DNA of 64,000 nucleotides from Capsaspora owczarzaki ATCC 30864 (Eukaryota; Opisthokonta; Filasterea): positions 434,001 to 498,000 of the forward strand of contig NW_011887302.1 of NCBI RefSeq assembly GCF_000151315.2, read 5' to 3'. Below, piece by piece: positions 6,862 to 31,911 of the stretch (position 1 is its first letter; each line of letters starts with the position of its first letter). The translations under genes and the position numbers were made by a program. Below the pieces are notes generated by a model. The model did no database searches. It was not told the DNA's origin and worked only from the letters and a program-made list of their open reading frames with translations.

Positions 6862-6900
<39 letters not shown>

Positions 6901-7802: not shown

Positions 7803-8928
7803 ATGAACGTTGCATTGTATTCAACGCCGCGCTTTGGCGCTCTGAAGCACACGATACAAAGCGAGGAACAGCGCAACAGCAGTAGCGGCGATGATGTTGC
7901 ACAGCCACCGTCATCACCCTCCAACAACAGCAGCCATCAGCATGAAGATGCGCAAGATTTGCTCTCGTTCGGCACCCACTGTGACGTCAAGGACTGCCGC
8001 CAGCTCGATTTCCTGCCATTCCGCTGCGACTCTTGCACACAAACATTCTGGTGAGTCTATGAGGAATTGTTGCTGAGTGATGGGACTTCAAAATGGAGCA
8101 ACGAAAAGCCTCGATTCGAGAAACAAAAAAGGTTTCAAACTACAGAAGCGTTTTGGTCGTTCCAGCTCGTTCCATGTCGTAAACCTTTTCCATTCAATGC
8201 TCACCTTGCAACCCAAACATTTCGCATTTTGCTCAGCTTGGATCATCGAACGTACGAGTCTCACAAGTGCAGTGCCGCTCCCAATCAAGACGTCAGTAGT
8301 TGAATGTTCCAGAAATGGTTTTTGGGTTTTCGGGAAATGCTCGAGTCAGTCAAAGAAGCTAACACTGGATTTGCCCCCTGCCCCTACTGTCACTCGCAGA
8401 TTCGAATTCCAGAATGTCCAAAGTGCCAGCAAAAGATTCAACGTCCGCGGGGATCCGATGCAGCCGCGCAGGTAAGGCGCCAAAAAAAATGCATGCGGTT
8501 CAACGCTGCTCAACGTTGACTCTTTCCTTTGCACGCACTAATCTTTCCCCCTGCACTCGAATACACCTCACGTAGATCCAAAAGCATATTGCAAGTGGGT
8601 GCCGAGACCTTGTACTCCTGGCCCCGCGACGCAAATGCAACCACAAGGGCTGCAAAAATACAGAAGCGCTATCGTTCAAGTGCAATCGATGCGAGCACCA
8701 GTTTTGTATCAAGTACGTATTGGGTGTATTTGCAATGGAAATGGACGTACAGTGCTCATTGCATGTTGACTGAACGATGCACAATTTGTATGGTGACCTG
8801 CTTGCAGACACATGCGAGTCCAGGACCACACCTGCTCAAGCCAAAGCATTCCTCCTTCTGGCAGCGACGCTCACCGACTTGCCAAGCCAGGACAGTCTGC
8901 CTTGAAACGAGCCATCACGGCGTACTGA
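7803..8928 (+). CDS. ZFAND2: AN1-type zinc-finger protein, ZFAND2/AIRAP type
   Basis: Five exons: 7803-8050, 8237-8291, 8400-8471, 8576-8712, 8808-8928; 210 residues. Splicing restores two AN1 fingers. The first (about residues 60-95) has CDVKDC, FLPFRCDSC, TFCLDHR and HKC. The second (about 140-185) has KCNHKGC, FKCNRC, FCIKH and HTC. A CPKC...HIASGC linker lies between them, the layout of ZFAND2A/B and yeast Cuz1. Family role: proteasome- and p97-associated factors that respond to arsenite or protein stress. No clear ubiquitin-interacting motif or CaaX box is seen in the short C-terminus, which ends ALKRAITAY. The 60-residue Ser-rich N-terminus is an extension. The second intron uses donor GTCAGT. 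The gene ends 91 bp from the convergent EXOC1 stop. Confidence 0.85.
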
Positions 8929-9019
8929 TTTTAATCGCTTGCTCATGTCTTGGTTTGTAGAATATACTGTATTATACTGTCTGCTCGCATTCTCCCACAA
9001 AGTTGAAGGAAATTCACGA

Positions 9020-12000
9020 CTACTGCGATCGGGAAAGCTCTGAAAAGTACGACAAGAGGTCGGAAATGTTAAACTCGAGGGTAATTTGCGAGCCTGGATA
9101 GCACCGCCGAATCAGATCCTCGAACGACTTGTACTGTGCGAGGAATTGCTCTTGGACGGAACGCCACACGACCTGGAGCAGAGAGGCTTCCTCGGACAGG
9201 TGCTTTTGCACCTTTTGATAAATGTGCTCGAGACCTTTCTTGACCTGCGAACGTGAAATTCACAGCTTTGAGTTGGTTGAAGAACGTGTCGCATCGCACT
9301 CAATCTCGACACAACGGCCGTCGACAAACCTCTTTGCCAGGATATTCCTTGATAATCTTTTTCAACTCTTGCTTTGAGTACTTGACTTGGAAGCCAATTT
9401 CATCTTCTCGAATGCCTCCGTCAATTCCCTTTTGAACTCCTTCAAAGAATTTCTGTTCGTTCAAAGATTGAGCGGGCCACGAAAAAGCGCTGTTCCATCA
9501 TCAAAGCGTTTTCAACATTGCAAAAAAAAGAGGCGCTTACACTCAGCTTCTCTAACGGCGAACCAAGAATGCTGGTGACATAGCCGTCAATGTTGTGCTT
9601 GTACTCTTGCTGCGCTTGCTTGCGGAAGGGCTCGATGCATGCAACCCGCTTCAGTGACATTTGCTGGAAGATTCCATGATAGTTTTCTGCCATTTCGGAA
9701 AGGACCAGCGAAATCAGTCAAGTTGTGTTGCTCAACGGTAAAGCGTGACAGAGCACTGTCGCGGCTTACCGAAGCGAACAACATCGCCGTGCTTGCAGTC
9801 AGAGGCAATGCGTTCAATGCCATCAAAGACAGCCTCGGCAATGGCGACAAACGCCGGATCGACTGACGACGCCTTTTTCCAGCCTTCAACCAGCAATTGC
9901 ATTGTTGACACAAAGTCCTGATCCCCGTACAGCAATGACAGCTTCTTGATGAGTATATTCATTCATCCATATCAAGCAACCGTCACTTTCCAGTGCAATG
10001 CTCACCGTGAATTTGAGAACAAATGGCAAAACACCTGGTTTGGCCTTCTTGGTGGTCTTGGCATCTTCAATGTGTCGCTTTTGCTCGTCCTACAACCATG
10101 AAAGTGTGCATATGTGAGAATCAGATTTCCAAACGCGATCGGCCATCGCAGCAACAACACTGAGACTGCCACACGCACAATAAACTTGTCAAACTCGCGA
10201 CGCGCCAGCTGGAAAATCCTCGTGAGCAATGCAGTCAAGAAATTACTCTTGCCGGCGTGCTCTTCAAGGCAACTGTCGACTTTGACCATCACAATCAACG
10301 TGTTGAAATGCTCGAGGCGGTTGCCCAAGTCCAGAAGCGACTGCAGCTCGCCTTCGAGCCACCCTTGCGTTTCGACGAGAATCGAGGTGATTCGCGGGTG
10401 CGTTTCGTGATGCGAGTCGACAACCATGCGGCTGTCAGAGTCCCCACATCAAAAAAAAAGGCATAGCCAAATAGAACGTGAGCTCTTTCCGAAAAAACAC
10501 AAAGCAACACATACACCACCGCCCAAAAAACAATTCACCGTTACCTGGTCTCCTCGGCAGAACGCACGGAAGCGGTCGAACCAGTGCGCTTGTGTGACTT
10601 GCTTGGTGCACGGAGAGACGTGGCAGCAGGACTGCTGCCAGCGCTGCCAGTGCTGGTGCTGGAACTGTTGTCCGCGAGAGGCGAAGAAGCGTCGACATCA
10701 GAGATGCTGAGCCGCTTGTTGCCGCTCGAGTGACCCTCAGGAACACTCAGCAGACCGGCCATTGCGGATGACTGCGCAGGTTTGTCCTTGAGATCGAAAA
10801 ACTCGAAAACGAACGCCTGCTCGGCCAAGACAAGGGGCACCACCAAGGCCAGCGCGCGATCGAAGGCTTGGTCAAAGCGAATGCGCTCCTTGGCACTTGA
10901 TCCAGGCATCATTGGGATGAGCACCTCCTCGCCGTCGCGCGCATCTGCTGTAGAACTCGTGGTCGTCAACAGAGGTCCTCCGGAAGTCTGCACGTGTACT
11001 TTGAAGGAGAACTTTCCTGCTGCGCCCTTGGCACCGGCTTGCGCTGCGTGCCGGAGTTGCTCAAAGACCGCCTTGCCGTCATCCTTGTAAATGCGCCCGA
11101 CCACTTGCATGTAGCTACGCGTCAGCGCCTCAAACTGTGCCGAATCTGTAGCCCGGAGCCACTTGAGCAGCGGAGTGTACATGAGCATGTTGCTGTGGCG
11201 ATTCGAGTGGTTCCTTGCCATGGGAGCCGAGGCCGTTGGGGCAAATGGTGGAGCCGGTGCGCTGGCAGCCCCGGTGCTACTCACGATACTGGGTGCTGCC
11301 ACGGGAAGCTGGAGCTGGTTGACCTGGTACTGCTGCAATGTCCGGGATGCCTCGATCCCAAGTGCTGCCACCATACTCGGGAGGACTGGCTCGAACGACT
11401 TTTGGGCATACATGCGCTCCATGAACTGAGCCAGTCGCTCGACAAACTTTTGCCTCAGCACGGCAAAGTACTTTCGCCGCTGCTTGACTGCGGTCATATT
11501 GGTGAGACCATTCAGGGCGCCCTCCTGATCAAAGATTCGGCGCAATCGGGCAGACGCAGTGATGGCCTTGCGCAAGTCACCAGCCATGGCCAAGTCGCCC
11601 GTTTCGAGCACGCTCAGCACGGACGGGTCGACGTCCAGTTCGTCGACGATGCCTTCAACGCGCGACTGGATGCTGCGGTAGTTTTCAGTCTGCACGCGGA
11701 CAAAGCCATGTTTGGCCTCCATGGCTTCGACATTTTGGCGCAGCTTGTCGACCACGCCGTCATACTTGTCAATGAATGACTCGAGCCGGTCGAGCTCGGT
11801 CTGCGCGCGGTCAAAGTGGCCCACGAGCAGGTCGATTTGCATTTCGGAGGAGAGCAGCGCATGAATGTTGGCCGAGTCCAAGCCGTGGAGCTCGTGCTGG
11901 AGCTTGTCCATGAAGCCCTCGGCATCTGCCACAGCCGTCTCGTACGCTGACAAGAACGACTCCATGTCACGTTCCTCCTGCTCGTTGAGTTCGCGATCGT

Positions 12001-13120
12001 CCGCATTCGCTCCAGCCGACTCAAACATCAGATCGTCGTTGAGCAAGTCAAGCGCGACCGCAGCCGCATCATCCCCTTCGGCGTCCCCTGCCCCTTCCTC
12101 ACTGGCGGACGGGCCGTTGCGCTTGCGGGAGCCAGGCGCACCGATACCGCGCCGCGCCATCGCACCGGCGGCTTGGTCGGGACTGAGCGCCAGGAAACTG
12201 ATGGTGGACGGGTTGTCGAGGCCAATGTGGTCCCAGCCAGCCGTGCTCGAGACCTGCTGCTTGGTGACGTTCTTGAGCTGTGGCTTGGCAGCCAGGTAGC
12301 TCTTGCACAAGCGCCAGACGACGCCAATGAAGGCGTTGCGCTCGTCCGCCGTTTCGGCAGTGTACTTGAGCACAGTCTTGCTGCCCGAGCTCGTCATGAC
12401 GATCGTGCTCGAATTCGGCGTGCCGCTCGAGCCGGTGCTTCCAACACTGGCAGCCGAGTGCATTGCACCGAGTCCTGCAGCAGCAGCATCGTCGTCGCGG
12501 TCCTTGTCCTTCAAACGACCAGTGCCGTCAAACTGGAGCGAGAATTCCCGCGCATCGATGCCCTCCGCCCTGCCGTCGATGATTCGGAGATCGCGCAGCA
12601 TGAACTCCTTTGACTTCTTGAGCCTTGTGGCGTTCGCAGCCGAGCCGGCAGTCCCAGCAGCGGAGCCCGTTGCAGCCAACGCTGCGTTGTTGTTCGCCTC
12701 GTCCTCGTCCGCGTCGCCGCCGTCGTCGTCCGTTCCCGCGCCCAGTGTGGACGTATGTGCAGCCGCAGCCGCAGCAGCCTGCATCGCAGCCGCGCGCTTG
12801 CTCTTGTTGCCCTTGATGCGCGAGAAGACCTTTCCGCTCTCAGGACCGCCACCACTGCCGCCACTGCCGCCACTGCCACTGCCACTGCCACTGCCGCTGC
12901 CATCCTTGAGCGTCTTCTGCTTGACGACGACGAGCACTGGGACTGAGTCGTCGCGCATCGCAATCGCAGCAATCCGCGCCTTGTGCAGCCGTCCGCCCTT
13001 GCCAGACAGGCCCACTGACAGCCGGTCGAGCCGCTTGGCCGGCTTCATGACGCGCAGCCATGCAATCAGGCGCTCGTTGGGAGCAAACACCTCCCGTCTC
13101 AATCGTGCGCCAATGTCCAT
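9020..13120 (-). CDS. EXOC1: exocyst complex component 1 (Sec3)
   Basis: Seven exons on the minus strand: 10545-13120, 10179-10431, 10006-10089, 9770-9944, 9541-9686, 9330-9452, 9020-9244; 1193 residues. The start MDIGARLRREVF was chosen because upstream in-frame residues look untranslated. Residues about 1-270 form the Sec3 PIP2-binding PH-like domain, interrupted by Gly/Ser/Ala repeats. From about 370 comes the conserved Sec3 helical region (SFLSAYETAVADAEGF, ALLSSEMQIDLLVGHFD). The small 3' exons give conserved Sec3 pieces such as DVVRFENYHGIF, whose codon is split by a phase-1 intron. Role: plasma-membrane landmark subunit of the exocyst, tethering secretory vesicles through PIP2 and Rho GTPases. 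Divergent from the molybdo-flavoenzyme gene. Confidence 0.9.
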
Positions 13121-13501
13121 CAGAATACAGAGTGAAGGAGTGAAGGAGTAAGGAGTGAGAGCGTTGGATTGGGGATTTGTTGTTTGATCTCTGAGAAAAC
13201 GAGCGAAAAAAAAAGCGACAAAAGAAAAAAGGGGAGTGGCGGATGTTGATCTCAGAATTTTATTCATCCACTTCCCAAAAAAGAGTTAGTTGCTTGATCG
13301 CCTTTCATCCAAATCAGAAGTTTCGCTCAGTTTCAACGATTCAGGTGTATGAACGAGTATCAGCGCTTTTCCTTCTCTTTGGATCACTAGTAGTACTGAC
13401 GCTTACTTGTTTGTACATTTCATCTGAATCGAATCTAATATAAATCTCGCTCTTCTTTATTTGTTTGTTGTGCAGTCCTCTCTATTCTGAGTTTTCGCCA
13501 A
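13121..13501. promoter_or_regulatory. shared divergent spacer between EXOC1 and the molybdo-flavoenzyme gene
   Basis: This 381-bp region lies between two divergent start codons and must hold both promoters and 5' UTRs. It is AT-rich without a convincing TATA box or repeat. The assignment rests on gene orientation only. Confidence 0.4.
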
Positions 13502-16500
13502 ATGCTTTCTTGTCCCAATTGCTCTCTGCAGTAAGAACTCGACAGCGACACTCTGCAGCTGCGCACACTTTTTCAATACCATGGACTTTTTTTTTCTAAT
13601 GATTGATTCTGACTCTCTTGCATCCGATGGTTAGGCTGAGTGAGCCACCCGCGGGTCGCATTGCTGCGTCTGGCGGCGTCTATACTGGACGTTGCGCCGG
13701 CTGCAACGCAAAGTTCACCTTCCAAGCCATTCCCAGCGCCGCCATCCCATCATCATCATCATCATCATCTTCTTCTTCAACAACAACAACAACAACAACA
13801 GCAGTAGCAGCAACGAGAGTCGTCGCTGCGCCACTCGCGCAGATTAGCTTCCGCGTCAATGGCACGGCTTACATTGTCACGCAGCCCGACCCGACCGTCA
13901 CCCTCAACGAGTTCATCCGCAGTCGCCCTGGCCTCAAGGGCACCAAGAAGACGTGCGGCGAAGGTACGCTTCTCATGAGAAGAAGTGCTCAAGGGGGTCA
14001 GGGGGGGTCACGGGGTGGGGGGTCATCAGTCAATTGGAGTTTGAAGCGCAATTATAGGAGCACGTCCAATGCAATGTGTATGGCATGACGGGGGGGGTGG
14101 AAAATGGCAGTATGTGCTCAAGAGTGATGAACACATGCCATCCGTGATCAACAAACGAGGCCGACGAAACGGGGGGACGAATGAAGGAAGGAAGGAAGGA
14201 GTATACTGGCTGAACTATCACAAGGCGGCATTGAAGCACTCATCATAATGCTCACCCCCACTTTAATGCATCAATCACAGGTGGCTGCGGCGCGTGCGTC
14301 GTCACAATGACAATCCCAGCTACCCAGTCATCTCCAGTCCAGCAGATCGCAGTCAACTCGGTGAGGAAAAAAAAAAAAAAGCAATATAAGTTGCTTTCTG
14401 TTCGGAGAAAAAGTGACAATCGTGGTCCACTCAACCGTTTTGTCCGCATTGGTAGTGCCTGCGTCCACTGTGCTCGGTCGACGGATACGACATTACGACC
14501 ACGGAAGGTCTTGGAAAGTACGCCGTGCTTATGGTGGCATGCGAGACTTGCTTGTTTGCTCGAGTGTTTGACGTTTGTTTGTTTTGGTTGTTTGTTTGTT
14601 TGTTTTCGTCAATGTTTCCTATTCCAGCCGCCAGGATGGCCTGCATCCCATCCAAGATCGAATTGCTGCGTTTGGTGGCACGCAATGCGGCTACTGCACG
14701 CCTGGCATGGTGATGAACATGTACTCGCTGCTCGCAGCCAACCCGCGCCCGACCAAGCAGCAGGTGGAGGATGCCTTTGCCGGCCATGTTTGCCGCTGCA
14801 CCGGCTATGCTCCGATTCTCAGCGCAATGCGCTCGTTTGCGGTCGATGCCACGGCTGAAGAGCGACTGGGCTTCCCGGATATTGAAGATCTGGGATCGCG
14901 AGTGAAAAGCATGCTCAACTCGCACCCCACGGCCGGCGCGACCAACCCAGCCATTCCAGGATGCACTGGCTCGTGCTCTACCTGCGCTGCTGATTGCAAC
15001 AAGGCCGGCAAGCGTGCTCCTGGTGGTGCGATTGCATGTGCAACCTCCACCTCCTCCTCCTCCTCCTCTTGCGCCTCATCCGCCGCTTGCTGTGGCAAAA
15101 CCCCTGCTGTTGGTGCTGCTGATGGTGCTGCTGCTGCTGCCAAACCCATCAAACTGCATGGCAACCCGGCAGCACCTACCGCGGTTGCCGCGACAGAGCC
15201 CCTGTGGTTCCGCCCTGCCAGCCTTGCGGAAACTACGCAGCTCATGCAGCAGTACGGAAAGGATTGCAAAGTCGTTGCAGGCCATACTTCCAGCGGCGTC
15301 TTTAAGACCGAGTTTACAAGCGCTGCCGTGCTGATTGACATTTCCCGGGTGCCTGAACTCAACTATGTGACAATCGGCACTTCCAGCGTCGTGTTTGGTG
15401 CGGCCACCACCCTCCATACCGTCATTGATACTCTGTCGAGCCTTGCATACGAGTTCCCGCAGTTTGCCGTGTATGTCGCCCACCTTTCACTGATTGCCAA
15501 TGTGTCTGTGCGCAATGTTGGCACTTGGGCCGGCAATCTCATGATGACCCACGACCACGATGACTTTCCCTCTGACTGCTTCACCGTCATGGAGTCGGCT
15601 GGAGCAACACTGTCGGTCGGCAGCAGCAATGGCTCGGTCACATACTCGTTCCGTGACTTTTTGTCCTTGACCTTTGGTTCGACGCAAATGCTTCTCGCAC
15701 TCACAGTGCCCTTCCCTCCCGCAGCCGCAAGCGTTCAAACGTTCAAAGTCATGCCACGCCATCAGAATGCGCATGCCTACGTCAACGCAGGCTTTTACGG
15801 CCAAATCGATGTGAACAACAATTTGGTCTTCACAACGGCACCCCGCCTCGTTTTTGGAGGCATTGGCCCAAAGGCCATTCGCGCCTCCAACACGGAGGCC
15901 TACCTGGCTGGAAAATCGCTCAGAACGGGTGGCGTGTTTGCGACCTCGCTGTCCATCCTCGCCAACGAACTCGTCCCTGACGCGCCTCCGGCGTTTCCCA
16001 CACCAGCCTACCGCAAGTCGGCTGCACTCGGCCTGTACTACAAGTACGTGCTCTACATTCTGCGCAGCCTGATCTCGCCGCGCAACATGTCCGCGGCCAT
16101 TCCCTATGTTCGGCCCGTGTCCTCCAGTGTCGAGACCTACGACTCCTCGCCCGCCGAATATCCAGTTTCGCAGCCAATCCAGAAACTCGAGGCTGGCATT
16201 CAGGCGAGCGGTGAGGCGCAGTACGTCGGCGACATTCCAACCGCGGAGGGTGGTTTGTTTGGAGCGTTCGTGCTCTCGACCCAAGGCAACGCCGACATTG
16301 CCAGCGTCGATGCGTCGCTTGCGCTTCAGAGCCCCGGTGTTGTCCGTTTCTTCACAGCCGCGGATATTCCCGGAGCCAACAACTTTGGCGTGGGAGGCGG
16401 CGAACCCATTTTTGCGACAAAGTCGGTGGTCTATGCGGGCCAGTCGATTGGCCTCATTGTTGCCGATACCCAGGCGCACGCTGATGCCGCCGTGCCGCTC

Positions 16501-18827
16501 GTTCGCGTCACCTACAGCAACATTAAAACGCCCATCCTCACCATCAGCGACGCGATCGCTGCCGGGCAGGTCCAGTCTGCCGGCGTTCCGGCATTGGTCA
16601 TGGGGGATGTGAACGCCGCGTTTGCCTCGTCGTACAGGGTTTTGCAGGGCCAGGTGGAGTGCGGCACGCAGGCTCACTTCCACATGGAGCAGCAGGCCTG
16701 TCTGATCGTCCCGAATGACGATGGCGGATTCCACGTGACAGCCGCCACCCAGTGGATTGACAACATCCAGACGACGCTTGCGCAAGCAACCAATGTCCCA
16801 GCCCACAAGATCACTGTGGAGGTGAAGCGCTTGGGTGGCGCATATGGTGGCAAGATCACGCGTCCCGCGCTGCCTGCGGCGGCCGCAGCGATTGCAGCTG
16901 CAGCCCTGCGAACCCCAGTCCGCATCAATCTGAGCCTTGCCAACAACCTTGAAATGATTGGCAAGCGCAATCCGTTCATGGCCAACTACAAGGTTGGCTT
17001 TTCGGCCACCGGTGTGCTCCAAGCGGTGCAGATTGATTACTACGCGGATGCTGGCTGCTTTGTGAACGACACGCCCGGCACCGTGTCCATGGCCATGACG
17101 ACATGTGACAATGCGTACTATGCGCCGAATTGGCTCGTCAATGGGTACATGGTGACGACCAACTCGCCGTCCCACACAGCCGCTCGCGCTCCTGGCTGCT
17201 TGCCTGCGATCTATTTCATGGAGTCGATTATTGATCACGTTGCGCGCTCACTCGGCGTGCCCGTGTTCAATGTTCGCAGCGCCAATCTGAATCAGCAAGG
17301 CCAGATGACGCCGTACGCAACACCGCTGACGTACTGCAGCCTGCCCACGGTCTGGTCGTCCCTGATTGCCTCCTCCGACTACGACAACCGCGCTGCCGCT
17401 GTCGCTTCGTTCAACGCTGCAAACCGCTGGGTCAAGCGTGGAATCACGCTCATGCCGCTCAAGTACGGCATTTCGTGGAACTCGTACGGATGTGGAGCGA
17501 CTGTCAACGTCTATGCTGATGGAACGATTGCCGTGACGCATTCCGGTATCGAGGTTGGTCAGGGCATCAACACTAAGGTAAGCGCGAGTGCTTTGGCGTC
17601 GTTGCTGACGGGAGAGACAGCGAGAAAGACAAAAAGCGTCGCAGAACTTTGTTGTTTTCGGTGAATGGATGCTCACCACTTTTGGCCCTCGGTGATGATA
17701 GATTGCGCAAATTGCTGCGTATACGCTTGGAGTAGACATGTCCATGATTAGCGTTCGTCAGTCGAGCAGCGAAAAGGTGTCGTTGCTTCTTTTCTTTTTT
17801 TTTTCTTTTTTTTTCGCCTCTTGTTCCTCTGTCAGTCCACTCACATTTCCGGGGTTGCTTGTGCGTGTATGTATTGCTGTTGTTGTAGCGCAAGCAACTG
17901 GTGGAAGCATCACGTCCGAGCTGAACGGTCAGGCCGTCGTCCTTGCTTGCCAAACCCTTTTGGCACGAATGGCTCCTGTCCGTCAGCAGATGGGCAACCC
18001 AACGTGGACCCAGCTTGTGACCCAGTGCAACACCCAAGGTGTAGAGCTGGCCACGCGCGGATGGCTCTTCCCCACCACTCAGTACACATTCCAGTACTTT
18101 TCGTTCGGCGCCGTTTGCGCAGAAGTTCAGGTCGATGTGCTGACTGGCGATACTCAAATCTTGCGCTGCGACATCCTGCTGGATTGCGGTGTTAGTCTCA
18201 ACCCTCTGGTTGATCTTGGCCAGTGCCAAGGCGGCTTTGTCATGGGTCTAGGCTACTTTATGACTGAGAAGGCCATTTACGACACGACGTCTGGCGCGCT
18301 CTTGACGAACGGCACTTGGGTACGTTTAGCATTCTTGTAGCACTGTCGTTGGTTGTCATGCAAGGTTACTTTTATTCTGTGTGCCACCTCCGTCAAACTT
18401 TTTGGCGGTCGATGAGTCGGGGGTTGGGTGTCTCTCCGTGAACTCAATTTGCCATCGCGATCCCTTGTAGGAGTACCATGTTCCCCACTCCAAGGACATT
18501 CCGATCGACTTCCGCGCTTCGCTCCTTCCCAGTGCACCCAATCCACTGGGTATCCTGCGATCCAAGGCCTCAGGCGAGCCTCCTTCGTGCATGTCGTGCT
18601 CGGTTTTGTTCGCCATGAAAGAGGCCATCATTGCTGCCCGCCAAGAGATTGGCAATACCGCGTTCTTTACTGCCAGTAAGCTGCTGTGCTTTCGTTACTC
18701 TCCTTGCTCTCTTTGACATGTGCTAACATGCTGAGTTTCTTTCTGATTCTTGTTTGTAGACGCCCCATTGACAATCGATCAAACTCAACAGCTCTGTCTG
18801 GTGGATCCCTCTCAGTTCTCCCTTTAG
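13502..18827 (+). CDS. xanthine dehydrogenase/aldehyde oxidase-family molybdo-flavoenzyme with N-terminal CxxC extension
   Basis: Nine exons: 13502-13530, 13635-13963, 14281-14360, 14456-14517, 14628-17577, 17702-17756, 17889-18319, 18471-18675, 18760-18827; 1402 residues. Domains in order: an extension with CPNC and CAGC pairs plus Ser/Thr repeats (1-80); plant-type 2Fe-2S (CGEGGCGAC); helical 2Fe-2S (CGYCTPG and CRCTGY); a Cys-rich linker; CODH-type FAD domain (VRNVGTWAGN); Moco domains. The Moco loop reads GGAYGGK and the substrate-site loop reads ARAPG. That loop resembles aldehyde oxidases more than xanthine dehydrogenases, which have a RGFG type. The C-terminal catalytic region GEPP is present. 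The FFxGYR-type NAD-site segment of XDH is not evident. Role: molybdenum hydroxylase of purines or aldehydes; substrate unknown. The exon 6/7 join is uncertain: the obvious donor after EK at 17777 is out of phase, while a GTCAGT donor at 17757 keeps frame but removes seven residues. Confidence 0.85.
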
Positions 18828-19303: not shown

Positions 19304-22300
19304 TTAAACGGCGTTTCCATTGTGAGGGTTGTGCATGCGCAGCAGCTGTGTGCGCATGGCCTCGACTTCCTTGAGCAGGCGAGTGTTTTCGTTGCGAAGG
19401 GAGCGGATTTCTTGAACAGCAGCCTTGCCACTAAGTTGCGCGGTGCGGCCATTCTCGCTCTCGTTGCCGGACGACATTTCCATGTCACCAGACTTCTGGT
19501 TGCTGCCACTTCCGCCGGCATTGGCGGACGGGGTCTTGGGGTGGCTGCCGTTGGGATTGGAGCCGCGGTAACTGCTGGTAGCAACGTCGTTGCCCTTGCC
19601 GCGCAAGATCAGGTAGAATTTCGGCGCCATCAAAATCATCACGGCAATCGGAACGGGCACGAGAACCTCGAGCGATTGAATGGCAAAGAAAAAGTCGGCA
19701 GTGCCAGTCGTCGAGTTCAGGATGATTTGCAAAATAATGCCCATCACAATCCAGTTGTACACCGCAAGGCCGATGTGCTTGGACTCGTTGAAGGCAGACG
19801 GCGCCTTTCGAACGCGGTAGCAGAGCAAGCCAAGAGCCACCATGGCGACAAGCTCTTCAATGTAGATGGCGTTGTCCCACCAAGTGACCTCGCAGACAAG
19901 GTAACTCTCATTGTTGGAGACGACGGTGCCAGTTGTTGGAGGGGTGGAGACAGACCACGCGACCAGGTTGACGGTGGCGTAACCCACGATGAGCAAAAAG
20001 CGGTACAGCAAGACGCGATCGGTCAACTGGCCACCCTTGCTGGACTTGATGTTGAACACGCTGGCAATGCGCCAAGTCTTCAGGAAGATGGCGGCAAAGA
20101 TGATGGCAAACCCAAGGTGGCGAGCCCACACGCGAGCAATGCACAGATTCGGGGTGACTTCCTCCTGATAGTTCAAGATGACCCAAAACATTGACCAAGA
20201 GGCGCCGATGAGCATGAGGAAGAGGAACTTGGGGCTGCCAGAGAGCACGGCACGAACTCGACGGTAGTGGATGACACCGAAGATAAAGAGGACGAAGAGC
20301 GCCAATTCAGCCGCGGCAACGACGATAAATGCAATGCGGAGCGCCGGGGAAACCTTGGTGGGCGTGACAAGGCGCGAAGGATCGGGAAGGTTGGGCTCCA
20401 TGGCAGCAAAGTTGGCAATCACCCATTCGCAGGTTGCTTCTTCAAGGCTCTTGCCATTGAAGACCATCTGGCCAAGAATGTTCGACTGATCCTGGGAGGT
20501 GTAGCTAAAGTGATCGACAAAGTCGGCGGCGACAGAGTTTTTGCTCGGCAGCTTCGACGACATCATCTTCACCACACGCTGGTCCTCGTATCCGCAACGG
20601 TAGGCTGAGCTTGCTGTTAATTCAGATGGGGAGCGGGCGGGCGGGCAGTGAGCAAAGCATCCACAACCTCAACCAGCTCCCACATGGTGAACTTACAGGC
20701 GTTGCAGGTCGAGTCGAACTCGGGCAGCTGCACGCGATGAAGACGAGCAGGAGAGACGTCCGCAAAGACGTAGTGCGGCTTGGTCCAGTACTGAATGAAC
20801 GGCTTGCGAGCAATGTAGGACTGCTTGGTCACTTCAACCATTGCATCCATTGTTTCATCAACGCCAAGCGTTTGGGAGACGGGGCAGGTGACGTTGAAGT
20901 TCAAGCTCAGGTTTTGCACAATGACGCGGTCAAGCGTGCCCCACGCATCAGGCATGGTCCAAAAGGTGATTGGTTCGCCCTCGTCCTTCAAGTTGGCACG
21001 CTCACGAAGCAATTCCAAGAACGCCTCAACGGTGGCAGTGCAGTCCGCCGCCACGAGCGACGCGTTGAGTGCAGCATTGCATGCAGGGCTCTCAAGAATG
21101 AGATCGATGTCGTCCACAGCACTGCGAAGAGTAGTGTTGTCAAGCTGAAAGCCTACGGGAATCGTATTCAGTCGGAACATTGCTTGGATGCGCTCATCGC
21201 TATTGTTTGCGGCGACAAAGAGAGCACAGTATGAGAATGACTGCTCCGACCGACTCGGCACAAGCAAGAAATACTCACTAGTATGCAATGTAGCTGTCAG
21301 TGATTGTGCTAACATCCCAGACATACTCGGGGATGTACCAACCTGTCTCGCCAATGATGCCTGACGGGCCGACTGGAAGATGGAACAAAAAAAAACAGAA
21401 AGAGTGAGATGACTTCAAAGTGCGCGCATTTCGCGCTGTAGATGAATCCGTACCATACACCACGGTGCGACGCTCGGTCACGTATTCGTCAATCAGGTAC
21501 TGGGTGTACTTGGGATACGCCTCCATAAGCAAGTCGCCGGCGCCGCTGGATAAAGCGGCGAATGACTCATCGTAAGTGCCGTACATTCCATACAATTGCG
21601 CCGGCAGACCGAGTTTCTCCTGCGTGATTGGAAAGGTGTTTGTAAAGGTGTTTGTAAAGGTGTTTGTCAAGGTGTGTGTAAGGGGTGGTGCGTCAGGGGC
21701 GGTGTGTGTTAGGGGGTTTGTAAAAGGGCGGGGCGCAAGGTGAGAACCAGATCAACCTCACGCGACGATTCGACTCGGTCACTCACCTCAAGAACGATGC
21801 GAGCAATGGTAGCGCTGATCATTGAGGAATTCCAGGCGTTGGCGACGATCTGAATGGGGGCCAAGTCCGTGCGGAGCGCGCCTGAAAGATAAAAGAACCA
21901 AAACAAATCACAAACACGAAAAAAGCAGCGCTTTGAGTTAATTTCCAAAGACTCATTTCCAGTCAAATAACAGAAACATTCACGATCAAGCATCAAAACA
22001 TAAACACAAAGAACACTGCTATTTCGGTATTGCGCTGCCTAATTCCGCTGCCTGCCCAAAACAGGGAGGTCACAGCCAGCTAATGCTGCGGTTTGGGATC
22101 CGGTTGTTTACACATGTTCGGTTATTTACATGTTTTTCGGCTGTTTGGAATCAATCGTATTCTTCACACTCGCTCTCTCGCTCTCTCTCCACTTTACACG
22201 CCACCCTCCCCCCTTTCCCCGCCACCCGGCTCTCTCATGCTCATGGCTTGCAACCACTCGCTAGTGCCAAGACAAGACAAACAGCGACAAATGGTTCCGG

Positions 22301-22759
22301 CAAAAAGAAACAGCAACTTGATCATGATTCCGCCGCCACACGCCCAAACCGCATGATCACAAGTCGTTGTTAGGGCAGTGGAGCATTTCGTGAGTCACAC
22401 CCCGCTCGCCTTGTGTCTCCAAACGCGCAGTGCAACCGTAACATGCTCGAGTCGATGAGCAATGTGTGCAATGGTTTGGTTTTTCACGCGAAATGGCGCG
22501 CTGGGACTCGATGCACTTCGCTGCCAATTTTTGACAGACGTAAAACGGAACAAGTGTAAAAATTTGGTATTGACTCAGCGTTCGCTGCCGAGCTCACCCC
22601 TTCGCACTCTCCAGGCCACACATACAGATGATCACACACACACACAAAAAGGCATCATGTTGTGTACATACGGCGTTCGTTCGGCGGGAAGCAGGCAGCG
22701 GAGGCAGTGCCTGCGAGCGTGATTGCTACCAGCAACGAGAAAACGGTCAGTTGATGCAT
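19304..22759 (-). CDS. OpuAC-like binding domain fused to class C 7TM receptor, copy A
   Basis: Six exons on the minus strand: 22672-22759, 21787-21881, 21454-21619, 21279-21372, 20697-21199, 19304-20613; 751 residues. Exon 1 encodes a signal peptide (MHQLTVFSLLVAITLAG) followed by CFPPNERR. The ectodomain has the marks of OpuAC-type glycine-betaine/proline binding proteins: IQIVANAWNSS near the start, GDLLMEAYPKYTQYL, GETGWYIPEYV, and IQYWTKPHYVFADVSP near the end. Seven hydrophobic segments follow, with the class C signature FNESKHIGLAVYN before TM6. The tail carries a leucine-rich coiled coil (RSLRNENTRLLKEVEAM). There is no cysteine-rich domain. Predicted role: plasma-membrane GPCR sensing a betaine-like or other small solute; the ligand is inferred. 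Exon lengths and phases match the divergent copy B exon by exon. Confidence 0.85.
21625..21685. repeat. short tandem repeat in a receptor A intron
   Basis: About four copies of a 12-bp unit, GTGTTTGTAAAG with variants, sit in the second intron of receptor A, just upstream of exon 3 in transcript sense. It is a minisatellite with no obvious function. Confidence 0.7.
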
Positions 22760-23470
22760 GTGCAATGCGCGGGGGAAAATGAAAGAAAAAAAAAAAAAGA
22801 AGACTGATCTTGGATAGATCTACCGCTGATCGAATACAGAAACGCAAAATCTCACACTTCGAACAGACCCACCGCGATCGCCACGCAAAAGATACACCAG
22901 CCATCACCCTGCAGCGGTCGTCGGATTCCCTTGCCCAACTCGCCACTCGCTGCCAAGTTTGCCTCTTTTTGCATGCGTCTTCACGCCAAGTGAGCGGGGA
23001 TTCTGCTTGTGACACCGGAATTTGCCGGCCGCCGGCTAAACAAAAGCCCAAACGAAACCGAAAATTGTCGAGTTTCCTGGCAACATTATTTTTTATTTTT
23101 TATGTTTGTTTTACAGTTTTTGGTGTGCCATTCCTTGATCAGAAGACCATTGCTGCTTTTGAAGCAGTCCCACATCCAGTGGGATTGTCAGACGTTGTAA
23201 CGCAAGTGAAGATGATGTGGCGACGGTGAAGATGTGCATTGCTCGTGATCAGGGCAGTATGAAGGTGAATCTACTCTCGAGACAACTCTGCTGGAATGGA
23301 TCTACCAGGTGGCAGCAGGCAGCAGCGGGTCTGCGTGTCACTGTGACCACGGTGTAGTACCGATGGATGGAACCGCTGCTTGCGGATTGGTCGAGTCGAA
23401 GGGATTTAAACCCAGTCTGAGATGGGTTTCGAGGTCACTCTTAGTTTTTGTCGCTTGCGCTTCTCCGACA
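22760..23470. promoter_or_regulatory. divergent spacer between the two receptor genes
   Basis: 711 bp between the start codons of receptor A (-) and receptor B (+). It must carry both promoters, so co-regulation is plausible. There is an A run near 22787-22798 and a T-rich stretch near 23090-23115. No ORF with coding character and no clear core-promoter motif was seen. Confidence 0.5.
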
Positions 23471-26400
23471 ATGAAATTGCTTGGAGCAACTCTTCTGCTT
23501 CTACTCGCGCTGGCGAGCCATGCAGCAGGCTACTGCTTCCCCGCATCTGAACGCCGTAAGATGACACGCTCTAACTCACATAGGGTGTTTGCAGGCACGG
23601 GGGTTTGGACGCGGCAGGTTTCGGGGGAGACGTAAAATGAAGGCGGATTGTTTATTTTAGTTTGGTCGCCTGCTTTCGGCAGTCACCTGCTCAAATCGGC
23701 CTCTCAGCTCGCAACAGCTCCCAAAGCCCCCATCTCTCCTCAACCACATATGACGTTCATACAGGAACACTATTCGCTTCCACCATTACACCCTCATATG
23801 ACTGTCGGGGCGGGTCGGGGGAGTGCGAGCCGTAATTTTAGCAGTCGGGAAATAAGCAGCAGCGGGGAGCACAAGCGGCCGAGCCGGTAGCGTGACCACA
23901 CCCCCTCGGCCCCTTGCCGATAATTATATCGGCTCATCACCTTCGTGGATGAGTGTGTTGCTGGTGGTTATGCACGATGATGGTGATCGTTGACAAAAGT
24001 GATTGACGAAATGATTGGGATACTAACAACAACCACAGCCCAAAAAAACAAAAAAAAAAACAAAAAAACTAAAACAAGAAAATTTCTGCCCCATGCTCAC
24101 CCCAGGCTTTCCTGCTTTGTTTCCTTGACCATGGAACTTGCTTTCTTTCTTCGCTTCTTCGTACCAGGTGCCCTTCGGACGGACATCGAACCCATCAACG
24201 TGGTGGCAAACAACTGGGACTCGTCTGCAACAAGCGCCCTCATTGCGAAAATTCTGCTCGAGGTACAAAAGTCGAACGCGGAATGCACAACAATGCGATC
24301 TGTCGTGTCAGTTGTCAATACTGCAATGTCTCGTGTGATAACTGACACATGTCATGCATTTGTCGCGTGCAGGAAAAACTAGGTCTCCCGACGAATACGT
24401 TCACGTATGACAGTTACGACGACGCGTTCGAAGCTCTGAGCTCGGGCACAGGTGACCTGCTCATGGAAGCGTATCCGTTGCGAGTGAAGGAACTGGTGGA
24501 TGTCTACGTCAAGCAACGTCGAACGGTCGAGAACGGTACGAACGTCAAAGCCCGAAAAGAGCGCTTGTTGATGTTGGTTGTCCATCAAAAGCTCATTTGC
24601 ATTTTTGGTCGCTTGTTTAGCTGGCCCGTCGGGCATGACGGGAGAGACTGGCTGGTACATTCCAAACTACGTCTGGGAAATCAATCCAGTCATGGAGAGC
24701 TACATTGCATTTTAGTAAGGCTTCAGGCTAGAATTCGTGGCACCCTGTACAAGTTTAGTGGCTCATCGAAGTATGCATTGCCACAGTGATGAACGCATCC
24801 AATCCATTTTCCACCTGGATGTGATTCCTGAAGGATACCAAATTGACAACACGACTCTTCGTAGTGCTGTGGACGAGATCGATAGCATTCTTGAAGGCCC
24901 CGCATGCAATGCCGCACTCAACGCGTCGCTCGTCGCAGCCGATTGCACCCTTGCTGTGGAAGCCCACGTGCATTACCTTCGTGAGCGTGCCAACTTGAAG
25001 GATGAGGGCGAACCAATCACCTTTTGGACCATGCCTGACGCGTGGGGCACGCTTGACCGCATCATTGTGCAAAACTTGAGCTTGAACTTTAACGTGACCT
25101 GCCCAATTCCGCAGAATCTTGGTGCCACAGACACGATGAATGCAATGGTTGAAGTTACAAAGAACGCCTTCCTTGCTCGTCAACCATTCATTCAGTACTG
25201 GACCAAGCCGCACTTTGTCTTTGCGGACATCTCTCCGGCGCTTCTTCGTCGAGTGCAGCTGCCCGAGTACGACTCGACCTGCAACGTCTGTAAGTCCAGA
25301 ATGCCTTGTAATGTCGGAACTGTTGAATTTTCAAATCCTTTGCTCACCGCCCATCGGACTTGGCAGCCAATGCATCGTACCGTTGCGGATACCAGGACGA
25401 GCAAGTGCTGAAATTTGTTTCTGCAGAGCTGGCTGACAAAAACTCTGTCGCAGACGACTTTGTCCACCACTTTACTTACACCTCACAAGATCAGTCGAAC
25501 ATTCTTGGCCAGGTGTTCTTCAGTGGCAAAACCCTCGAAGAAGCAACATGCGAGTGGGTGATTGCCAACTTCGATGCCATGTCAGCCAACATGCCCGATC
25601 CTTCGACCCTTGTCACGCCGACCAAGGTTTCCCCGGCGCTCCGCATTGCATTTATCGTCGTTGCCGCGGCTGAATTGGCGCTCTTCGTCCTATTTGCGTT
25701 TGGTGTCATCCGCTACCGTCGGATTCGTGCCGTGCTCTCTGGTAGCCCCAAGTTCCTCTTCCTCATGCTCGTCGGCGCCGCGCTGTCAATGTTTTGGGTC
25801 ATCTTGAGCTATCAGGAGGAAGTCACCTCGAATCTGTGCGTTGCTCGTGTGTGGGCTCGCCACCTTGGATTTGCCATCATCTTTGCCGCCATCTTCCTGA
25901 AGACTTGGCGCATTGCCAGCGTGTTCAACATCAAGTCCAGCAAGGGTGGCCAGTTGACCGATCGCGTCTTGCTCTATCGCTTTTTGCTCATCGTGGGTTA
26001 CGCCACCGTCAACCTGGTCGCGTGGACAGTCTCCACCCCTCCAACAACTGGCACCGTCGTCTCCAACAATGAGAGTTACCTTGTCTGCGAGGTCACTTGG
26101 TGGGACAACGCCATCTACATTGAAGAGCTTGTCGCCATGGTGGCTCTTGGCTTGCTCTGCTACCGTGTTCGAAAGGCGCCGTCTGCCTTCAACGAGTCCA
26201 AGCACATTGGCCTTGCAGTGTACAACTGGATTGTGATGGGTATCATTTTGCAAATCATCTTGAACTCGACGACTGGCACTGCCGACTTTTTCTTTGCCAT
26301 TCAATCGCTCGAGGTTCTCGTGCCCGTTCCGATTGCCGTGATGATTTTGATGGCGCCGAAATTCTACCTGATCTTGCGCGGCAAGGGCAACGACGTTGCT

Positions 26401-26676
26401 ACCAGCAGCTACCGCGGCTCCAATCCCAACGGCAGCCACCCCAAGACCCCGTCCGCCAATGCCGGCGGAAGTGGCAGCAACCAGAAGTCTGGTGACATGG
26501 AAATGTCGTCTGGCAACGAGAGCGAGAATGGACGTACCGCGCAACTTAGTGGCAAGGCTGCTGTCCAAGAAATCCGCTCCCTTCGCAACGAAAACACTCG
26601 CCTGCTCAAGGAAGTCGAGGCCATGCGCACACAGCTGCTGCGCATGCACAACCCTCACAGTGGAAATGCCGTTTAG
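23471..26676 (+). CDS. OpuAC-like binding domain fused to class C 7TM receptor, copy B
   Basis: Six exons: 23471-23555, 24168-24262, 24373-24535, 24621-24714, 24787-25289, 25367-26676; 749 residues. Signal peptide MKLLGATLLLLLALASHAAG, then an OpuAC-like domain (about 29-395) with INVVANNWDSSATSA, GDLLMEAYPLRVKEL, GETGWYIPNYVW and QYWTKPHFVFADISP. Its closing segment KTLEEATCEWVIANF resembles the C-terminal helix of bacterial OpuAC proteins. Seven TM segments lie at about 404-650, with the class C motif FNESKHIG, followed by a Ser/Gly-rich tail and a coiled coil at about 705-740. Several NxS/T sites lie in the ectodomain. Family knowledge: class C GPCRs signal through G proteins and usually dimerise; OpuAC proteins bind glycine betaine or choline in an aromatic cage, and the Trp/Tyr-rich motifs here would suit that. 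Ligand and partner are inferred. Confidence 0.88.
23556..24167 (+). other. long first intron of receptor B
   Basis: 612-nt phase-1 intron (donor GTAAGA, acceptor GTACCAG). It has an A-rich stretch near 24043-24070. No internal gene is visible. Confidence 0.7.
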
Positions 26677-27047: not shown

Positions 27048-29092
27048 ATGGTAGACGCGATCGCTGGAGCAGCAGCAGTCGCTGGAGCAGCAGCGCCTGC
27101 CCCATCGCCATCATCCCGGCCACCCTCCTCTACCAGCAAGCCCGGTTTCGTGTCATTGAATCATGCATCCGCTGGCTCGGTCGGGGCATCCGTCGCTCAG
27201 GCAGGGCTACTCGTCGAGTCCACGTCGCGGTCACCAGCAAGCTCGTCCGCCTCCTCCTCCTCCGAGCAGCAGCCACAGCAACCGACGCGCCCTCTGCTGC
27301 ACATCTTTGTCGCGGGTGGCGTCGGTGGTGCCACGGGTGACTTTCTGATGCACAGCATTGACACAGTCAAGGTATTGATCAACGTCGCCCTGTTCATTGC
27401 ATGTTGGTTTCGCTCTCGCCAAGACAGAGACACTTTTTGTCGGGGGGAAACCTCAAACAGGACCCTCTACCCAAGACTTTTGTTTGTTTGTTTGAGCTGA
27501 TCGCAAGTTTCATGAGCTGATCGCAAGTTTCATGAGCTGATCACAAGTTTCATGGGTGGTGCTGGGGGGCCTTGGAGAAGCCTGCTCTCTCAAAATCTCA
27601 CTCAGTGTCAGTTCTCAGTGTCGCTGCTTTTGTGGATCACTCACACATGTTTTCGTTTTCGTTGTTTCTTCTTGTCTCTGTGTCTGGAAATGTACATGTC
27701 CGACATGCGCAGATTCGCATACAGTCATCACATGGACAGTACGAAGGCACAGTGGACGCATTCCGGAAGATTGTTGCAGAAGAAGGTTTGATCAAGGGTC
27801 TTTACAGCGGAATTGGCGCTGCACTGGTCGGCTCGGTGCTCTCGTCATCACTATACTTTACAGCTTACAACGTCTCGAAGGAACACACGCTCAAGTACCT
27901 GCCAAGCACGATGGCGTACTTTACGTCGGGTGCATTTGGCGATTTTTGTGCGTCGACACTGTACGTCCCTCTGGAAGTCATCAAAACCCGAATGCAGCTG
28001 CAGGGCGCCATGCAACGCGTCGCGGGCCTCACTCCGAGAGTGGGTGCGCCTGTCGCGTACCAAAACGTCTTTCACGCCTTCTTTACAATCTACCGCCGCG
28101 AGGGCCTTCCTGGGCTGTACTCTGGGTACCGAGCCACTGTTTTCCGAGACATGCCGTTTTCAGCCATCCAATTTACCGTGTACGAACAGGTGAAGCGACT
28201 CGCGGCCTACCTCACGGAACCCGACCCGCTGCTTATTGAGGAACAGAAACAGCTACGGCGTGCGCAGCGCCAACGGCAACGACAAGAAAATCAGCATCAG
28301 CTAGTCGGTCTAACGTCGTCTTCCGTTCCCGGATTGTCGGCAAGCCAGCTTGCCATTCTTAGCAACAGTAGTAATGATGGCAGTGCTTCATCAAGGAGAG
28401 CTGCCAGTAGTGGTGACAGGCGGAACGATCCTGCTGCAGCCGACGGTGCACGACCGCCCGTTCAACTTATTCCAGATGCCGTCGAGCCCACCGACCCACT
28501 CGCTCATCCGGACAACCATTATCGAACGCGATTCAACACCCCTACAACCATCAATTCTCTCTCCGGCGTGATGGATGGGTGCATTTCGTACACAACAGAC
28601 TGGATGGCGGGAGGCATCACCCCGTCCACATTCAACACGCCCGGACCCTCGCGAGTGCAGCAGCAGCGGTCCCTTCTTGCAACGCAAGATCGGGGACGGA
28701 TGCCTGGAACCTCCTATTGCCTGGATGGCAACGCAGTCATGCTCGGTGATGACGATGAGGTTGGTTGGGGTCCCGGTCAACTTTTGGCGACCGTGCGCGA
28801 GGCCGGCAAGGAACTCTTGCTCGGAGGCTTTGCAGGAGGCGTTGCAGGTGCCATCACCACGCCCATGGACGTGGTCAAGACCACTCTGCAGAGCTCGCCC
28901 TCCGCTGGCGTTGGCGTGATTGATACGTTCAAGTCCATCTATCAACAGAGCGGAGTTCGAGGATTGACGCGAGGTATGGCAGCGCGTGTCATTTGGACTG
29001 TGCCGCAGTCTGCCACCATGTTCTTTGTCTTTGAGCAAGTGACGCAGTTTCTTGCGCGGTTTGACCCAGATCGTGTTCCAGCGGAGGAGTGA
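27048..29092 (+). CDS. mitochondrial carrier family protein like yeast Mme1/YMR166C
   Basis: Two exons: 27048-27371 and 27713-29092; 567 residues. Three carrier repeats are present with signature motifs HSIDTVK, PLEVIK and PMDVVK. The first has Ser instead of Pro, as I recall for YMR166C. The flanking sequences GGVGGATGDFLMHS, YVPLEVIKTRMQLQG and DMPFSAIQFTVYEQVK resemble that yeast carrier closely. Role in yeast: inner-membrane exporter of magnesium; equivalence here is inference. Odd features are a roughly 70-residue Ala/Ser/Pro-rich N-terminal extension and an insertion of about 150 residues between repeats two and three, rich in Gln/Arg then Ser/Pro. Typical carriers are about 300 residues. 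Same strand as LAS1, which starts 198 bp downstream. Confidence 0.85.
27492..27553. repeat. 20-bp tandem repeat in the carrier gene intron
   Basis: Three near-perfect copies of TGAGCTGATCGCAAGTTTCA lie in the single intron of the carrier gene; the third copy differs by one base (GATCAC). Confidence 0.85.
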
Positions 29093-29289: not shown

Positions 29290-31911
29290 ATGTCGGCCGC
29301 CTTACCACGGCTCGTGCCATGGGCCACCCGTCGCGAGTGGGAGGCAGTCCGCCAGTGGTTGTTTGCCTCGGGGACGAGCGAGCGTGACCAGACGCGTGCC
29401 ACGGCCAGGTACCGCGCTCCCTTTAGAGGAGTCGGTGTCATTGAGTTTTGTGCTCACCCTCCTCCGCTCTCTGTCGGCTGTACTCATCGACCTGTGTCAA
29501 TTATTGCTTTAGGATTATGGCTTGGAAGAGTCGCGGGAAGGTCCCGACGGCGGTCGATGTGACTGCGACGTTGGTCGAGTGCCAGCTCAAGGACGCACAC
29601 GCGGCTGCGACGCCAGCAGCAAGGAACACGCGCGTTGTCGACGCTGCGAATAGTGCTGCCGAGGCGTCCATCTTGAGATACGCCTATGCGAACTCGATTG
29701 TGCGGTTTGTCAACGGCATTGTCGACGCCGAGCAGAAGGGCGTCCACGCGCGATCCGTCAAGTAAGTGGAGAAACTTGCACAGCTCAATCAAGTACCTGA
29801 GATCTGAATCATGCTGGAAATGCTCACTTTTCCATCGTCGTTGTCTGGTTGGTGGTAGTGCGATCGCGGTCGAACTAGGCGTGCCAGAGTGGATTGTGGA
29901 CATTCGCCATGATGTGACGCATACCGCGCTGCCAACGCTGGCTCTCCTGCGGACGGCAACATCGCGGGCATTGGAATGGCTGCGTGAACATTATTGGGAC
30001 GCCCAGCAGGATCTTCTTGACGAGGACATTCGCAGCGTCAAGGCGATGCTGGCAGATTACCACAATGCCGTTGTGCGGAAACTCCAGGTGCGTTAACATC
30101 TGCATTGACTGCGCTGGTTATTGGAGATCTGTTGCTTTTGACTTCATTGCGGGGAGTCCTCTCACCATGCTTATTGTTGACTTTGCTTGCAGGCGCAAGA
30201 AGGCGCCGTTGCGACTGAAGCGGACTTCCTCGAAGCTTCACTTGCGCCGATTGTCCAACGCGTGCAGCCTACAGCTTTAACTGATGTTCTCATCCCCTGC
30301 CTGTTTTCCAAAGACGGCATTTATTCCTATACACCCATAACGACCAGCGCTGCACCTGCTACACCTGCGGACAGCACGAAATCCACAAACAACACTTTGA
30401 AGGGAAAGAAGGCTCGTGAATCTGCGGCTGCTCCGGCGGCTGCTTCGGCTTCGGCTTCTGCACAAGCAGCTCGGTCGGCCGCTCACAACTCGCCCGCTCT
30501 TGCTGCGATGGCAATGGCCTCTCAAGTGGCGCCGCACTGGATTGACGCCGTGGCATTCTTCTTGCGCCAGTGGCCGCAGCTGACCTCGCTCATTTTGCAA
30601 CTTGGCGTTGCTGACGTTTGCTCTTCGCTGTCATCGGGCGATGAGACGGCAGATCCCAGCTCTCGCTTTGATGTGATGGAGGAGAGCGACGACAACGAGG
30701 CGGCGGCCGAAAGCACAACCAGCCCTTTCGCGGATCACGCCCGTCATTCTGGATTACGCATGTCCCACACTGCAGCCGAGCGAACCCTCCTGGTAGATCT
30801 GTTGAGCCTCATTCTGGGCAGTGCCATTCGCTCTGCCCCGTTGGTGCGTGCAGCGCTGCCAACAACCGCTTTGCGATCCACGTTAGACCGCGCTTCGTTG
30901 TCCTCGACCACTCCCTCCGCATCATCCAATAATGCTGCCCCAAGCAGCACAACAGCTGCTTCGTTCAGTGTCGTCGACCTTCCAATCGATTTACTGCTTC
31001 ACGTCTGCTTCAAGGCCATGAGCTCCGGGGCGATTCAGCTGCTCCCCTTGCTCGCTTGCGCCAAGCAACGGCTTCTGGTACAAGAGTTGGATGAAGAGCT
31101 CCTTGCTTGCGCATCCAGTACGATCGGCAGCAGCAGTGGAGTGAGCCGAAGGCCGAAACAAAAGCAGGCCCTTCGAAAGAGTACTGAAGGCATTGTTGCT
31201 CGCTATGAGGCACGTTGGAGCTCATTCTACCGCCGACTGACAGCTCTGATGCAGCTTCAGCAGCAAGCGGATGCGCTGTTGGCTGCCGAGCAGCCCGTCC
31301 TCAGCGCCTTCCACAATTTCAATTCCAAAGCGACCTCCGTCGTCTCCTCCGCGCCAGCCCGTCCCCAATTCTCGAGTGATCAGAGGGACACGCAGTTGAA
31401 GGAGCTCGACAGACTGAATCAGGATGCTGGTCAGCGACTTGTCCCTGGCGCAGCAAGGGCTGACGGCGAGCGGAGTGTTCCGACCGAGGCTGCTGCTCTC
31501 GCTCTCGTCTCCAATCCGTGGAAGAAGGTCACGGCTGCCCACCAGATTCTCGCATGGCAGTTCTGCCCCATCGGAGCTCTGCCGACGTCTGCATGTCCGG
31601 ATTTGTCTCTGCCGCTCGCATTGGACACCATTGCAGCAGTCAGCGCGCCTCGAGAACAGGACAGCGGCTTTTCCAACAGTGCTGCCGCTGCAGAGGATTG
31701 TCAGGTTGTAGGGCACCAGCCCCTGCTGCAGCGCGGGTTGAAACGTGAGTTTGCTTCAGCCGAGGACGATTCAACGCCGTGTGAAGAGACCAGCGCCAGT
31801 GAAGCCGAACCTCTGGAGGCTGCCAGCAAACGAGCGCGATTAGTCGAGCCTGTGTCGTTTGACCCTTTTCTGGTGCCAGGGGCTGCAAGTTTCGAAGTGG
31901 ACTTGCTTTGA
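29290..31911 (+). CDS. LAS1L: LAS1-like pre-rRNA ITS2 endonuclease
   Basis: Four exons: 29290-29408, 29513-29761, 29859-30087, 30193-31911; 771 residues. The N-terminal 180 residues are a clear LAS1 domain: LVPWATRREWEAV, WKSRGKVPTAVDVTA, SIVRFVNGIVDAEQKG and GVPEWIVDIRHDVTH. The RHDVTH segment (R139 to H144) fits the HEPN RxxxxH nuclease motif, so the enzyme looks active. The start was chosen because the first exon opens with the VPW motif close behind MSAALPR. The long remainder is Ala/Ser-rich with a weakly conserved helical region and probably carries the partner-binding part. Role: with Grc3/NOL9 it cuts ITS2 during 60S maturation in the nucleolus. Confidence 0.88.

Follow-up and report, generated by a model that had tools for sequence, protein, structure and literature searches.

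Predicted class C receptors of Capsaspora owczarzaki join OpuAC-type sensors to a transducer half that is near-identical in some copies

The flytraps in most descriptions of class C receptors are of type I (LIVBP/ANF). Our searches of the Capsaspora owczarzaki ATCC 30864 genome show at least 12 predicted class C receptor genes that carry an OpuAC flytrap in that place, among them gene A, which lies in the window analysed here (the whole stretch of 64,000 nucleotides, positions 434,001 to 498,000 of contig NW_011887302.1). The OpuAC-class C architecture is already known, and the Capsaspora family adds another example; what is newer is that in some copies the transducer halves are near-identical while the sensor halves diverge.

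Gene A occupies positions 23471-26676 of the plus strand, where six exons separated by five GT..AG introns encode 749 amino acids and a stop in a 2250-nt open frame (Table 1). The translation has a hydrophobic, signal-peptide-like N-terminus and seven hydrophobic clusters, and an OpuAC ectodomain of ~370 aa precedes the seven-transmembrane domain (7TM). Pfam assigned OpuAC (PF04069; E 2.6e-17, 63.7 bits against a cut-off of 21.2) and, C-terminal to it, 7tm_3 (PF00003; E 5.2e-38, 131.6 bits against 33.5), and the only other match at E<=10 had an E of 0.22. The initial annotation had proposed this pairing of an OpuAC-type domain and a class C 7TM in one gene, and both models indeed score above cut-off; the motifs that it had cited (WDSS, GDLLMEAYP, GETGWYIPNYV, QYWTKPHFVFAD, EEATCEW and FNESKHIG) are all present in the translation. 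It had named an ectodomain of the LIVBP/ANF type as the alternative, which we rejected: no LIVBP/ANF (PF01094), Peripla_BP or Bmp family matched gene A or its paralogue gene B in a Pfam scan run to E 10, a search in which HMMER filters remove most weak matches. The same scan of the two proteins placed no cysteine-rich domain between flytrap and 7TM.

GABA-B receptors have an LIVBP-type flytrap, C-terminal heptads and no cysteine-rich domain, and GPR158 has a Cache domain. By phmmer against the PDB, the gene A 7TM is nearest to GPR158 (2.2e-18) and GABA-B2 (2e-14), followed by GPR179 and mGlu2. Gene A resembles GABA-B and GPR158 in its 7TM and likewise lists no cysteine-rich domain, but an OpuAC flytrap, with no LIVBP/ANF assignment, takes the place of their LIVBP-type or Cache module.

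A gene model made from sequence alone could in principle have merged two neighbours, one for a secreted OpuAC protein and one for a 7TM protein. Exon 6 singly matches 7tm_3 only and exon 5 singly matches nothing in Pfam; the OpuAC score requires the whole spliced ectodomain. Exon 6, however, holds ectodomain residues 314-395, which align to binding proteins, together with the whole 7TM in a single uninterrupted frame, and the exon plan is common to all 12 copies except for one joined exon pair in copy g3. When the gene B protein was aligned to gene A DNA, the same ten inner exon borders were recovered, and the coverage lacked just the six initial codons and the stop. The alignment of the family to the bacterial binding protein DmpX (PDB 7yle) spans both DmpX domains, and in paralogue g10 a single open frame, reading through intron 5, matches OpuAC and 7tm_3 alike. 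On the frame, the shared exon plan and the binding-protein alignment we rejected two adjacent genes, a reading that we regard as exceedingly improbable. On sequence evidence the fusion is confirmed as real, with exons 1-5 and exon 6 predicted to form a single gene, as initially annotated.

Table 1. Predicted features of genes A and B, in window coordinates
Feature	Position	Strand	Remarks
Gene A exon 1	23471..23555	+	signal-peptide-like start, aa 1-28
Gene A exon 2	24168..24262	+	OpuAC lobe I start; W45 at 24215-24217
Gene A exon 3	24373..24535	+	OpuAC lobe I; Y94 at 24472-24474
Gene A exon 4	24621..24714	+	GETGWYIPNYV segment; aligns to passage from DmpX domain I to domain II
Gene A exon 5	24787..25289	+	lobe II; W232 at 25043-25045; QYWTKP with T285 at 25202-25204
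Lobe II insert segment (approximate)	24785..25015	+	net ~60-70 aa extra relative to bacterial binding proteins
Gene A exon 6	25367..26676	+	OpuAC ectodomain end, stalk, seven TM, tail, stop
Gene A stalk (aa 388-398, ..PDPSTLVTP)	25588..25620	+	g6/g7/g8 divergence falls here from high to near zero
Gene A 7TM (aa 404-645)	25636..26361	+	TM3 LKTWRIA and FNESK
Gene A C-terminal heptad repeat	26569..26646	+	a/d = I L N L V M L M; putative coiled coil
Gene B exon 1	22672..22759	-	spliced model
Gene B exon 2	21787..21881	-	spliced model
Gene B exon 3	21454..21619	-	spliced model
Gene B exon 4	21279..21372	-	spliced model
Gene B exon 5	20697..21199	-	spliced model
Gene B exon 6	19304..20613	-	7TM 96% identical to gene A
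Spacer between divergent A/B start codons, 711 bp	22760..23470	.	gene models

Elsewhere in the window, at 2-17661 and 27536-29089, Pfam recognised Urb2, alpha/beta hydrolase, Sec3 and xanthine-dehydrogenase-type domains and a mitochondrial carrier; the frame at 30181-31908 had no Pfam match. Three near-identical 20-bp tandem units (gagctgatcgcaagtttcat), seen by eye at 27494-27553, apparently lie within an intron of the neighbouring mitochondrial carrier gene.

The initial annotation also knew of no class C receptor with an OpuAC domain, and here it was mistaken. The survey of Krishnan et al. (2012; PMC3251606) had recorded the domain in six Allomyces macrogynus class C receptors; compared by description, these share with gene A the pairing of PF04069 and a class C 7TM, in a fungus rather than a filasterean host. 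In the passages cited here, that survey counts 20 Capsaspora class C sequences, reports ANF-type, TIG, Pentaxin and 5_nucleotid_C ectodomains for C. owczarzaki and names no OpuAC for Capsaspora (PMC3251606). Our full-text search of the open-licence literature found no report of an OpuAC-class C fusion beyond Allomyces.

Searching the gene A protein against its own genome (27.46 Mb, 29 contigs) yielded 63 exon-level matches, and six-frame profile searches yielded 3 matches for the OpuAC model and 35 for 7tm_3. Spliced alignment recovered ten further full or nearly full copies, g3-g12, which with A and B make 12. Artefacts of the aligner were very small spurious exons (g10), a split tail (g10 and g12), an absent or shortened exon 1 (several copies) and last exons cut short (some copies). 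We excluded g13, a class C gene from that alignment run, which aligned only from aa 379. Every one of the 12 copies has an exon 4 of 94 nt and an exon 5 of 500-509 nt, and every ectodomain matched OpuAC at E<=1 (best 3.4e-20; individual scores are given for member 1 only). A TM3 lysine and FNESK-type ICL3 motifs mark class C GPCRs, and LKT.RIA and FN[EG][SC]K motifs occur in 12/12 copies, as does the heptad pattern in the C-terminal tails. In a 7TM tree with seven other class C loci the 12 members cluster with a support of 91/92, which falls under the program's strong mark, in a tree with long branches among the non-family sequences. Two local arrangements were also seen: g3 has exons 2 and 3 joined in frame (contig C11:724371-724108), apparently a single-intron loss, and g6-g9 are four tandem copies (C1:3119604-3135414) whose ectodomains are 52-64% identical and whose 7TMs are 98-100% identical.

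Eight other class C loci of the genome were searched with Pfam. Three had ANF or Peripla_BP ectodomains, two had 7tm_3 alone and one had a weak ephrin-receptor-like stretch; Pentaxin and 5_nucleotid_C ectodomains were not found among these eight. The remaining two of the eight stood out for a beta-helix ectodomain (L004) and a TIG plus laminin-G-like ectodomain (L029). The earlier attribution of the DNA to a unicellular relative of animals fits the presence in the genome of class C receptors with ANF-type and TIG ectodomains.

A profile of the family matched six PDB entries at E<=10, all of them solute-binding proteins of betaine/choline-type ABC transporters: 7yle (DmpX, 1.1e-16), 4xz6 (TmoX, 1.6e-9), 3l6g, 2b4l, 7ahc and 2reg (0.023). 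Of the 322 residues in the DmpX chain, the alignment with the family covers 27-134 and 149-311. Most residues of the aromatic box align between gene A and the bacterial binding proteins DmpX, TmoX, ChoX and OpuAC. The DMSP site of DmpX (7yle) comprises Trp35, Trp84, Trp152, Trp202, Tyr200, Thr64, Ala153 and Glu113 (PMC10030565), the TMAO site of TmoX (4xz6) comprises Trp55, Trp102, Trp177, Trp222, Phe106, Phe220 and Glu131 (PMC8918994), and a subgroup binding quaternary amines and DMSP has been defined by three or four box aromatics (PMC10030565).

We mapped these literature sites onto the family by sequence alignment, at ~25% identity or less. In gene A, W45 aligns to DmpX W35 and TmoX W55, Y94 to DmpX W84 and TmoX W102, and W232 to DmpX W152; T285 aligns to DmpX W202 and TmoX W222, with W284 one residue off. 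On this alignment-based assignment the gene A box has three of four aromatics, with T285 at the fourth position. Three of four are also kept in B, g4 and g6-g9, all four in g10-g12 and two in g3 and g5. Threonine occupies the fourth position in A, B and g4, alanine in g3 and glycine in g5; W45 is replaced in g3 (V) and g5 (R), and position 94 is N in g6-g9. The position of DmpX Tyr200 is Tyr in 11/12 members, and W126 and W226 are invariant in all 12. Opposite the ligand-binding Glu of DmpX and TmoX the alignment puts T124, the neighbour of E123; g10-g12 carry Arg at 123. Because the box positions differ among copies, the copies probably differ in ligand.

A betaine reading is favoured by the NCBIfam choline-binding model, which matches 4/12 members weakly (best 2.3e-7), and disfavoured in gene A by T285, the shifted Glu and a score of 12.4 bits against the model's cut-off of 379 bits. 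Two-lobed binding proteins readily change specificity, and the OpuAC scaffold may have been recruited to bind amino acids, aromatic amines or other small polar ligands, leaving the gene A box as a remnant; in gene A, T285 and the displaced Glu, and in g3 and g5 the loss of W45, point in this direction, but gene A retains three of four box aromatics, g10-g12 retain all four, and W126 and W226 never vary. We consider such repurposing possible but rather doubtful. From the alignments, a betaine-, choline- or DMSP-like ligand is plausible for the family and may hold for gene A, and we lean, with modest confidence, towards the joint explanation of a class C family of at least 12 OpuAC flytrap genes with a methylated-cation ligand and a transducer kept uniform in two subgroups. 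A small methylated cation (a quaternary ammonium or sulfonium compound such as choline, betaine, DMSP or a near relative) would then most likely close the two lobes, the short stalk would relay the closure to the 7TM and from there to a G protein, and the receptor would dimerise through its C-terminal heptads.

For bacterial relatives, we scanned genome contigs with two short peptide patterns and confirmed 222 among 278 candidate stretches, of which 80 were retained. All but one of these are titled Streptomyces or Kitasatospora (79), the other being a Nitriliruptoraceae MAG; since the search used two short patterns, this make-up says little on origin. In a box comparison of 20 relatives picked from the 80, all four positions were aromatic in 15/15 usable sequences; L065, L108, L111, L126 and L138 had been translated in a wrong reading frame and were left out. 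L064 and L074 both matched OpuAC in Pfam. At the two bacterial loci with scanned neighbours, the gene for the binding protein is flanked by an ABC permease on one side and, on the other, by an aldehyde dehydrogenase (L064) or a GMC oxidoreductase (L142). Read against the genes of the choline-to-betaine pathway, both neighbourhoods would fit choline-to-betaine loci by analogy. Unlike the bacterial binding proteins, the gene A flytrap is joined to a 7TM and does not belong to an ABC transporter, its box is incomplete, and its lobe II has an additional segment containing two invariant cysteines. Both the insert and the cysteine pair, common to the family, are absent from the bacterial proteins; in gene A the segment contains C186/C199 and two N-glycosylation sequons. 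A scan of viral contigs found no relative among 87 stretches.

Gene B (22759-19304, minus strand) is a paralogue of gene A transcribed divergently from it, with a layout alike. It matches OpuAC (1e-17, 65.1 bits) and 7tm_3 (2.4e-36, 126.1 bits), its only other Pfam match at E<=10 having an E of 6.7. The head-to-head arrangement of two genes with near-identical 7TMs and C-terminal heptads, and with no cysteine-rich domain between flytrap and 7TM, as in GABA-B, could suggest that A and B form an obligate heterodimer like GABA-B1/B2 in which one subunit is ligand-free. The box residues, however, are the same in A and B, so neither resembles an empty partner, and by genome position none of the remaining members of the 12-gene family is paired head to head. 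We judge an obligate A/B heterodimer unlikely.

Synonymous differences, counted in 15 pairs at codons for the same amino acid, were compared between the ectodomain and the 7TM plus tail. Copies g6 and g7 differ at 113/211 such codons in the ectodomain and at 19/331 in the 7TM plus tail (p 2.2e-37), and the other five g6-g9 pairs likewise show lower synonymous divergence in the 7TM plus tail. The same holds for A/B (83/243 versus 20/320) and A/g4 (80/232 versus 29/316). In B/g4 neither half diverges much (32/311 versus 28/319), as expected of recent duplicates. No difference between halves was found for g10/g11, g10/g12, g11/g12, A/g5 or A/g3, and for A/g6 the 7TM value is slightly lower than that of the ectodomain (p 0.049). 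In g6/g7 and g7/g8 the divergence changes abruptly, no more than a few codons from the stalk, and less sharply so in g8/g9; in A/B, patches of the ectodomain also diverge little. Among ten of the 12 copies (all but g3 and g12), the 600 bp past the stop codons showed no similarity by blastn at E 1e-5; intron 5 of g6-g9 appears unrelated by eye.

At the level of coding sequence, then, the block from stalk to stop is near-identical in two subgroups whose sensors have diverged, a pattern of concerted evolution of the predicted transducer. The simplest account is that gene conversion or repeated block transfer would hold the 7TM and tail uniform in g6-g9 and in A, B and g4. Synonymous constraint on the 7TM was rejected as the cause, given that the g10-g12 pairs, A/g5 and A/g3 have no half-to-half difference. 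Diversifying selection on the sensor was not supported either: ectodomain dN/dS in the closest pairs is ~0.2-0.3 (0.052/0.188 for B/g4, 0.093/0.455 for g10/g11), and these pairs carry no sign of positive selection.

OpuAC has a second receptor context in this genome, at C2:2646600-2653526 on the minus strand (loci L001 and L144). From C2:2652275 downwards, one spliced frame runs from an OpuAC match (36.1 bits) through one hydrophobic stretch, a putative TM, and a kinase-like part to a guanylate cyclase domain (PF00211, 2e-57). Its ectodomain is absent from the gene A matches and could therefore be no more than distantly related to the 12. Animal receptor guanylyl cyclases carry ANF-type ectodomains, and the Capsaspora gene parallels them with OpuAC in that position. 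A full-text search of the open-licence literature found no report of OpuAC with a guanylate cyclase.

The vertebrate V2R and olfactory class C families are expanded, with varied flytraps, and the Capsaspora family resembles them in both respects with a different type of flytrap. It may be a chemosensory family of variable sensors on a constant transducer, in which flytraps diverge to sense different methylated osmolytes, recombination with its edge at the stalk holds the 7TM and tail uniform, and OpuAC has also been placed on a cyclase; we put this forward tentatively, at somewhat less than even confidence. If it is true, OpuAC would take the role of the ANF-type flytrap in each of the two receptor classes that carry it in animals. 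The family indicates that the class C 7TM accepts another sensor module, and it offers a testable link from osmolyte sensing to GPCR signalling before animals, as well as a natural panel of sensors for ligand screening, mounted on a transducer that hardly varies.
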